From Isosphaera pallida ATCC 43644 (GTDB taxonomy: Bacteria > Planctomycetota > Planctomycetia > Isosphaerales > Isosphaeraceae), in NCBI RefSeq assembly GCF_000186345.1, contig NC_014962.1, positions 5,298,450 to 5,362,449 on the forward strand: a DNA stretch of 64,000 nt, read 5' to 3'. Within the stretch, counting starts at the first letter, position 1. Each line of letters begins with the position of its first letter. The notes under the pieces were generated by a model. That model searched no databases. It worked only from the letters and a program-made list of their open reading frames with translations, and was not told the origin of the DNA. A program made the translations under genes and the position numbers. This document shows, piece by piece, positions 29,801 through 57,436 of the stretch.

Positions 29801-29841
29801 ATCGAATCAAACCAAACCGGCAGGGTTTGGTTTGATTCGAT
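29801..29841. terminator. Perfect 18-bp inverted repeat between convergent genes
   Basis: ATCGAATCAAACCAAACC, loop GGCAG, then the exact reverse complement. It lies between the stop of the Phd-like gene (plus) and the stop of cobL (minus), so it can serve both strands. There is no long T run, so factor-independent termination is plausible rather than certain. Confidence 0.65.
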
Positions 29842-55195: not shown

Positions 55196-55762
55196 ATGAG
55201 CGTGGGGGTTGGTGGAACCGGGTTCGACCGGTTGACGTCGCCCGCGAATCCTCCCAAAGCCGTCGCCGTTGCGGGTCACACTCGACGGAGCGCCTCATCT
55301 TCGGAAGCTCCTTCAATGGTCAACCGTCAACCATCTTCCTGCCCTTCGGTCGCGTTTCAGGTGGGCGACCGCGTTTTGATCAAGTACGATGGGCGGGGGG
55401 TCGCTCGGGTCGTCGAGCTTCGGGGTCCATTTGGTCCTAACGGTGAGATGATCGACCGGGTCGTCCTCTCAACGGGGATTCCCAAAACGCGCGTCTTCAT
55501 CGAGGGTCGCGGCGATCAGCTACGGCTTACGCCGCTTCCGAATGAGAAGACCTCTTCAACCAAGCCAAGAGAGAACCTCACTCATGGATCAACGCTTTTC
55601 TCAATCGAATCGCCGTTGCCGCCGCGTTATGCTGGCGAGTGTGTTGGTGACGTTGCTGAGCGGGGTTGGGGCAGGGGGGCGCGACGAGCCGATTCTGGCC
55701 TGGGGCAAGAAGGTATCGCCCGAGTTCAAAGCGCGGATTGTCGAGATCGCCCGCGACCTTAA
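55196..55762 (+). CDS. Hypothetical protein, 3' end overlaps transglycosylase gene
   Basis: 189 residues from an ATG after GGAAGAGG; an ATG at 55316 is another possible start. The middle part (FQVGDRVLIKYDGRGVARVV, ELRGPFGPNGEMIDRVVLST, RVFIEGRGDQLRLTPLP) looks like a small beta-barrel of the kind seen in KOW/Tudor-like domains and has good codon character. The last ~60 codons lie inside the next gene in another frame and look non-coding. A one-base shift near 55546 would end the protein at a TGA before that overlap. No named family recognised. Confidence 0.42.
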   Translation: MSVGVGGTGFDRLTSPANPPKAVAVAGHTRRSASSSEAPSMVNRQPSSCPSVAFQVGDRVLIKYDGRGVARVVELRGPFGPNGEMIDRVVLSTGIPKTRVFIEGRGDQLRLTPLPNEKTSSTKPRENLTHGSTLFSIESPLPPRYAGECVGDVAERGWGRGARRADSGLGQEGIARVQSADCRDRPRP

Positions 55763-56195
55763 GGCCGACCCCGATCACCTCATGGCGGCAATCGCCTTTG
55801 AGACCGCCGAGACGTTTCGACCCGACATCAAGAACGCCGCCGGCAGCGGCGCGACCGGCCTGATCCAGTTCATGCCCGCCACCGCCCGCAGCCTGGGCAC
55901 CACCACCGAGGCCCTCGCCGCCATGTCCGCCGTCGAACAATTGACCTACGTTCACAAATACCTCGCCCCTTATCGCGGCAAGCTCAACGAGGTCGAAGAC
56001 CTCTACATGTCGATCCTCTGGCCCCGCGCTGTCGGCAAGGAGCCCGAATACGTCCTGTTCACCCAGGGGACGCGGGCTTACGACCAGAACAAGGGACTCG
56101 ACAGCAACCGCGACGGCAAGATCACCAAACGCGAGGCCGGCTCGAAGGTTCGCGCCAAGCTCGAGAAAGGACGGACGCCCGCCTGGAGAGGGTGA
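55584..56195 (+). CDS. Exported lytic transglycosylase-like protein with EF-hand
   Basis: 203 residues from the ATG starting MDQRFSQSNRR; an ATG 14 codons upstream is possible. The N-terminal segment RRVMLASVLVTLLSGVGAGG is a signal peptide. The lysozyme-like SLT domain has the catalytic Glu in AFETAETFRPDIKNAAGS and the partner motif GATGLIQFMPATARSLG. Near the C-terminus DSNRDGKITKRE is a full 12-residue EF-hand calcium loop (Asp1, Asn3, Asp5, Gly6, Ile8, Glu12). The protein should cleave glycan strands of peptidoglycan in the periplasm; calcium dependence is inferred. With lpxA and the VanX-like protein it supports a conventional peptidoglycan and outer membrane. Confidence 0.8.
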   Translation: MDQRFSQSNRRCRRVMLASVLVTLLSGVGAGGRDEPILAWGKKVSPEFKARIVEIARDLKADPDHLMAAIAFETAETFRPDIKNAAGSGATGLIQFMPATARSLGTTTEALAAMSAVEQLTYVHKYLAPYRGKLNEVEDLYMSILWPRAVGKEPEYVLFTQGTRAYDQNKGLDSNRDGKITKREAGSKVRAKLEKGRTPAWRG

Positions 56196-56223
56196 GAGCG
56201 GCACACGGAATGATTCCAAGAGC

Positions 56224-56356
56224 GAGAGCCTGTTATCGACGTTCTCAACGAGATTCCTGTTCACTTGAGCCATACGACGCATTTGGAGGCCGTGTGCAGG
56301 ACCAGTAAGGTGCGATTTCCCTGAGAAACTCTTGTCAAAGTGCATAACAGGCTCTC
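56224..56356. mobile_element. 133-bp MITE-like element with inverted ends
   Basis: GAGAGCCTGTTAT at the left end and ATAACAGGCTCTC at the right end are exact 13-bp reverse complements, with weaker matching continuing to about 25 bases. AGC lies immediately outside both ends, fitting a 3-bp target duplication. The inside has no gene. GAGAGCCTGTTA-type ends are reminiscent of IS5-group elements, but no parent IS is in the window. It sits between the transglycosylase and esterase genes. A large stem-loop terminator is the alternative reading. Confidence 0.55.
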
Positions 56357-56476
56357 AGCAACACTCCCCTCGTTCCCAATCCCGCGCGGTGGCTTGACCG
56401 GCGCACCCGACGCCTGGACAATCGCCTCCGTCGTCTTGCATTTGACACAGACTTGAGGATCGAGGAGTCGCCGCCG

Positions 56477-57436
56477 ATGAAGACGGGAGTTCGCGTTCTG
56501 GGTGGATTCGTCCTCATGAGCGCCTTGAGCGTCGCGTTGGTCGGGTGGGGCGATTCGCCCGTCAGCCTCGCCGGGGAGGTCGAGGTGATCCGTCTCTGGA
56601 AGGAGACGGCTCCGCCGGGTCCTCCGGCGTTGGTCGAGGGGGCGGAGCGCGACTTGCAAAAGCCGGAGGATCGCCTGGTGGGCGGGCGAACCGTCATGAA
56701 GTTGGGCCACGTCGCCAACCCCGAGATTCATCTCTACCCCGCCCCACCCGACAAAGCCAACGGCGCGGCCTGCGTGGTCTGCCCCGGCGGAGGGTTCAAC
56801 ATCCTCGCGTGGGACCTTGAAGGGATCGAAGTGGCCGAATGGCTCAACTCGATCGGCGTCACGGCGATCGTGCTGAAGTATCGCGTCCCCACCCGCGGAC
56901 ATCCGGGAGAGCAGCGGGTCGTAGGACCGGCCATCGACGCCCAGCGCGCCTTGAGTCTGGCCCGCCACCACGCCGAGGACTGGAAGCTCGACCCCAAGCG
57001 GATCGGCGTCCTGGGCTTCTCCGCCGGCGGGGAGACGGCGGCGTTGACCGCGCTCAGACAGGGACGACGGTTGTATGAGCCGCGCGACGTGATCGACCAG
57101 GCTCCCTGCGGGGCCGATTTCGCCATATTGGTCTATCCCGCCAACCTGCTCACGCCCAACGGCATACTCAAGGCGAACTACGTCCCCGACGCCGCGACCC
57201 CGCCGATGTTCCTGGTCCACACCGCCGACGACCCAGTTCCCTGTCAGGGGAGCATCCAGCTTTTTCTCGGTCTGAGACGCGCCAACCGTCCTGCCGAGTT
57301 GCATGTTTATCCCTCGGGCGGTCACGGCTACGGTTTGCGAGCCGAGGGCGGGCCCCGTGTCGCCTCCTGGCCCCGCGACGCGGCCGCCTGGCTGGGTGAG
57401 TTGAAGATGTTGGACACCCCAGCCACCCAACCATGA
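56477..57436 (+). CDS. Exported alpha/beta hydrolase (acetyl-xylan-esterase / BD-FAE like)
   Basis: 319 residues from the ATG after GAGGAG. A signal peptide (VRVLGGFVLMSALSVALVGW) precedes the hydrolase. VVCPGGGFNILAWDLEG is the oxyanion-hole region, GVLGFSAGGETAAL carries the nucleophile Ser, HTADDPVPCQ the Asp and YPSGGHGYGL the His, so the triad is complete. The arrangement matches the planctomycete/Bacteroides xylan-esterase and feruloyl-esterase-like group; deacetylation of plant or algal glycans is inferred. The stop overlaps the start of the alcohol dehydrogenase gene by 4 bases (ATGA), so the two are translationally coupled. Confidence 0.85.
   Translation: MKTGVRVLGGFVLMSALSVALVGWGDSPVSLAGEVEVIRLWKETAPPGPPALVEGAERDLQKPEDRLVGGRTVMKLGHVANPEIHLYPAPPDKANGAACVVCPGGGFNILAWDLEGIEVAEWLNSIGVTAIVLKYRVPTRGHPGEQRVVGPAIDAQRALSLARHHAEDWKLDPKRIGVLGFSAGGETAALTALRQGRRLYEPRDVIDQAPCGADFAILVYPANLLTPNGILKANYVPDAATPPMFLVHTADDPVPCQGSIQLFLGLRRANRPAELHVYPSGGHGYGLRAEGGPRVASWPRDAAAWLGELKMLDTPATQP

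Follow-up and report, generated by a model that had tools for sequence, protein, structure and literature searches.

MITEs are defined as short (<500 bp) elements that carry terminal inverted repeats and no transposase gene, and they are described as AT-rich, intergenic and able to form stem-loops (PMC10969869). In type-II MITEs the likeness to an insertion sequence (IS) is limited to the terminal repeats; multiple copies are usual but not required, one cited MITE being present in 1 to 22 copies per genome (PMC10969869). The autonomous elements closest to the one analyzed here are IS5_3-type ISs from Planctomycetota, Verrucomicrobiota and Chloroflexota, including genomes of the same family (L071, L092, L107, L108, L129, L132, L163 and L168-L173). 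In this work we examine a short inverted-repeat element of Isosphaera pallida, whose published genome (strain IS1B(T)) comprises 5,529,304 bp in two contigs, the larger of 5,472,964 bp (PMC3072084). All coordinates refer to the window, that is, the whole 64,000-nt stretch of DNA that was analyzed, located at C2:5298450-5362449 of this genome.

The element spans positions 56224-56356 (133 bp) and is bounded by perfect 13-bp inverted repeats, GAGAGCCTGTTAT at 56224-56236 on the plus strand and, read on the minus strand, the same 13 bases at 56344-56356. These ends and coordinates, first given in a preliminary description based on the sequence alone, proved exact. The arms show 80% complementarity over 25 nt, with 83 bases between the 25-nt arms, and the element can form a hairpin, with a folding superior to that of shuffles (z -2.65). 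It is intergenic, with an SLT-like gene on one side and a hydrolase gene on the other: the upstream plus-strand ORF (55542-56195, 217 aa), with a lytic-transglycosylase (SLT) match just under the Pfam cut-off, stops 28 bp before the element, and the downstream plus-strand ORF (56453-57436) encodes a 327-aa alpha/beta hydrolase. A DDE transposase gene is absent from the 133 bp. Within the probable 129-bp core (56226-56354), delimited by comparison with related ISs, five of the six frames contain a stop, and the remaining minus-strand frame is open, belonging to a mechanically called 255-aa ORF that runs antisense to the upstream gene; a non-coding interior is plausible. The GC content of the element is 50%, against 63.5% in the window, where 1.7% of 6,387 overlapping 133-bp pieces are equally low. 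Being short (<500 bp), terminated by inverted repeats and without a transposase gene, the element has the traits by which MITEs are defined, and it further resembles type-II MITEs in its GC content below that of the surroundings, its intergenic position, its hairpin and a likeness to ISs that is confined to the ends. It departs from the usual type-II MITE in being single-copy and in having no partner IS found in its genome.

The likeness of the ends to those of an IS emerged from a search of 45 family genomes for the 13-mer with one mismatch, which yielded, besides the element's own pair, a single IS pair (L163, in genome G036): a near-identical pair of ends lying 860 bp apart. This IS encodes a 267-aa transposase that matches PF13340 (DUF4096), PF01609 (DDE_Tnp_1) and the IS5_3 model NF033580 at 185.3 bits (cut-off 110), and among the related ISs the scan with family models covered this protein only. 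A tblastn search with the L163 transposase led to related copies bearing ends of this kind, and 13 IS copies with a related transposase and both ends recognizable measure 856-923 bp. Like these ISs, the element terminates in GAGCCTGTTAT, or in a sequence close to it, with NNAC and usually TT coming next. Unlike them, it lacks a transposase gene, measures 129-133 bp instead of about 860, is flanked by GA/TC instead of TA/TA, and has an unrelated interior. The earlier suggestion that the ends resemble IS5-group termini is thereby borne out, as such ends occur together with an IS5-family transposase in ISs of the same bacterial family and of other groups; the search for an IS with the same ends, proposed at the same time, succeeded in other genomes (L163 and related copies) and not in I. 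pallida.

We quantified this likeness with a weight matrix built from the 26 ends of the 13 ISs, all of which were located by likeness to GAGCCTGTTA, which introduces some circularity into the first ten positions of the matrix; among 127,966 window positions, the right arm (56336-56354, minus strand, GAGCCTGTTATGCACTTTG) ranks first with 32.4 bits and the left arm (56226-56243, plus strand, 18 bases scored) second with 18.6 bits, the next position reaching 4.3 bits. Seven of the 13 ISs had been fetched by end patterns and six by protein similarity, and a matrix restricted to the 12 ends of the latter returned the same ranks (26.2 and 15.1 bits, the next position 9.0). The ISs used represent 13 of 40 transposase rows, with L167 (the same copy as L163) and 26 others omitted by eye. 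Among the omitted rows, L117 (61% identity) has one good end and L174 (64%) none; the partial L109 and L175 have one each, L177 has one end at one mismatch and L182 (59%, partial) has both ends at two mismatches. The distant copies L178-L181 and L183-L196 (24-40% identity) include none with two good ends, L190 showing one at one mismatch.

A sequence model of the ends reported a single place in the window, the right arm (E 0.00013), and a single place in the genome, again the right arm (18.5 bits, E 0.011, with 150 of 412 first-look candidates scored); the left arm went unreported by this model in the genome, even at E 5. A pattern describing both full arms of the element found nothing in the genome collection. 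A looser, shared arm pattern, then scanned over the same collection, returned at least 120 hits in at least 119 stretches, a possibly biased part of the whole. Among the matches listed, TA precedes 69 of the 120 hits, and the commonest variant, GCACTTTG, which is exactly the right arm of the element, accounts for 44 of the 120 hits and for 40 of the 69 that follow TA. The hits are not independent, two MAGs contributing 20 of these 40 (JAQCEJ, 14; QWPB, 6). The left-arm variant, CGACGTTC, occurs once in the 120 hits and in none of the 69 after TA, again among the matches listed. Judged by these sequence comparisons, the right arm can firmly be assigned to IS5-type ends, and the left arm, more weakly, would be a diverged end of the same type. 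The likeness stops there, since the interior is no more similar than shuffled sequence to eight ISs and eight other short elements with similar ends, and these comparisons tie the element to no particular IS. Among the papers returned by a full-text search for the literal end GAGCCTGTTAT, none has a title on insertion sequences, and five transposon terms looked for in PMC5352709 do not occur in it.

The inverted repeat itself says much less. A scan of the window for perfect 13-bp inverted repeats with a span of up to 400 bp found five distinct places (10 raw 13-mer pairs), and 60 first-order Markov simulations gave a mean of 0.58 raw pairs and a maximum of three. A 13-bp repeat by itself is therefore unremarkable in this window and constitutes weak evidence for an element. 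The longest structure returned by the same scan is a perfect palindrome at 29801-29841, with 18-bp arms and a 5-base loop. Relatives show no excess of the bare 13-mer either: it occurs exactly in 12 of 392 phylum genomes, I. pallida included, against 10 for a backwards-read control pattern, and with one mismatch at 85 places in the family genomes against 192 control places. Ten of the 11 other phylum genomes with the exact 13-mer have it at a single place and one (G126) at four, and in the I. pallida genome the 13-mer with up to one mismatch is found only at the element's two places, the control at four. The five repeat places in the window and the lack of enrichment in relatives are what speaks for a chance inverted repeat within the intergenic gap. 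We nevertheless regard this explanation as highly improbable and have rejected it, because the arms fit IS ends far better than any other window position, a likeness that outweighs the window's repeat frequency; what sets the element above chance is the agreement of its two arms with IS5-type ends.

A reading of the locus as a transcription terminator, or as a structured 3′ untranslated region belonging to the SLT-like gene upstream, with a coincidental likeness to IS ends, draws on the short distance to the stop codon, on a folding that beats shuffles (z -2.65, with 3 of 200 shuffles folding as well) and on the same abundance of perfect 13-bp repeats in the window. Searches aimed at such structures were negative. 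An intrinsic terminator, with its short GC-rich stem, small loop and T run, was rejected after no such site was found in 56100-56600, and a known RNA family after no Rfam match at the gathering score was obtained in 55600-57000. The separation of the 25-nt arms also tells against a terminator, as does the lack of any match to the element region in 58 of 58 relatives (with no more than 12 first-look candidates scored for each genome), and this reading leaves unexplained the ranking of the two arms, first and second, as IS5-type ends. We consider it distinctly unlikely. The preliminary description had proposed counting copies in the full genome and had held that a single copy, conserved at the same site in relatives, would favor a terminator. 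The single copy was indeed observed, the 5,529,304-bp genome containing one, but neither conservation in the 58 relatives nor a terminator-like site accompanied it. The look for empty sites in related strains, suggested in the same description, found none, the region being without a match in all 58 relatives. The 217-aa SLT-like ORF (55542-56195) had no match among the other 44 family genomes searched, a blastn search of plasmids with 56150-56460 gave no match, and neither of two arm patterns matched in viral contigs.

The precise borders of the element depend on how the bases adjoining the GAGCC...GGCTC core are read. On the left the adjoining triplet is CGA, on the right TCA, giving GA/TC in place of TA flanks. 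Of the 13 related ISs, 12 have TA immediately outside both of their GAGCC-like ends; in the remaining one, L171, the left end adjoins TA and the right end TG. The 12 would put the borders of the I. pallida element at 56226-56354, where they probably lie, and would make the match between the two AGC triplets incidental. These triplets, described earlier as a target duplication, are present on both flanks of the 133 bp (56221-56223 and 56357-56359, plus strand), but as a duplication they fit the group poorly, and their status as such is doubtful. Direct repeats derived from target duplication are described as fading with age in MITEs (PMC10969869). The GA/TC flanks may have mutated, may reflect an atypical insertion, or may belong to true GAGAGCC ends accompanied by an AGC duplication.

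The last of these options would make the element a mobile element of another IS5 branch, with GAGAGCC as its true ends and a genuine 3-bp AGC target duplication. In its favor, the inverted repeat does include the outer GA/TC, and AGC stands on both flanks; at the GC content of the window, and with boundaries fixed in advance, the chance of the 3-bp match is roughly 0.02 and that of the 2-bp extension roughly 0.07. Set against this are the TA flanks of the paired ISs described above (12 with TA on both sides, and L171 with TA/TG), and no complete IS combining GAGAGCC ends with a 3-bp duplication was met among the elements compared. The exact 13-mers of G126 point the same way, all four being preceded by T, as do three short elements of that genome (L015, L016 and L018), in which both ends read TNA adjoining GAGCC or GAGTC. 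We thus view a separate IS5 branch as an unlikely origin, if one deserving some weight.

Short elements with comparable ends occur elsewhere. Those of G126, a genome of the same phylum, are palindromic with GAGAGCCTGTTAT-like ends and have 80, 24 and 91 bp, respectively, between the outer bases of their 13-mers; the G126 loci have 38-42% GC, and the fourth 13-mer (L017) is unpaired. In two Chloroflexota genomes, 123-bp elements with GAGCCTGTTAT-like ends (L046:3150-3272 and L118:275-397) are 73% identical over their full length and form a small MITE-like family with IS5-type-like ends; L046 has TGA on both flanks, and L118 carries one mismatch in one end. The I. pallida element is similar to these two in ends and length and differs from them in its unrelated interior. 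Two contigs of one Anaerolineae MAG (L119:588-807 and L060:65-281) share an element of about 220 bp with IS5-type ends and 91% identity, whose middle part is repeated elsewhere and which in L119 has one mismatch in one end. The partial L182, from a genome of the same family as I. pallida, is an IS copy shortened to 508 bp that retains a partial transposase and both of its ends, and a deletion of this type could be a step towards short elements.

The genome of I. pallida was also searched for a transposase able to act as partner. Neither PF01609 nor PF13340 has a match in it, and a protein search found no relative of the L163 transposase there. As positive controls, the two Pfam searches matched in 9 and 5 of 14 genomes, and relatives of the L163 transposase were recovered from 41 of the 44 other family genomes (protein search, E 0.001, some matches being distant). 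With the Pfam and protein searches negative here and the controls positive, no resident partner was found.

We consider it probable that the element is a non-autonomous, single-copy relic with two ends of the IS5 family (DUF4096/DDE_Tnp_1, IS5_3 type), best described as type-II MITE-like. The designation as a MITE put forward in the preliminary description holds for the short length, the inverted, IS-like ends and the lack of a recognizable gene; the single copy and the failure to find a resident transposase of such type depart from it. As we picture its history, a transposase of the IS5_3 group, not found in today's genome, would once have inserted the short element, in trans and through binding of its GAGCCTGTTAT ends, into the gap that separates the SLT-like gene from the hydrolase gene. 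The source IS would later have been lost, or would have acted from elsewhere without settling, leaving the copy stranded and presumably now immobile. A host function for the element is not indicated. The hairpin might instead have been retained, after the disappearance of the IS group, on account of a benefit to the host, such as protection or termination of the upstream transcript, which would make the element a domesticated remnant of a single IS; we judge this very unlikely.

As a probable relic, single-copy and with IS5-family ends, the element is an ordinary example of a familiar type of remnant and matters little beyond annotation. It illustrates how an orphan non-autonomous element may be recognizable only via ends from other genomes. 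For the biology of the organism, it suggests that I. pallida once met an IS5 group whose relatives are common among the genomes of its family, none having been found in its own.
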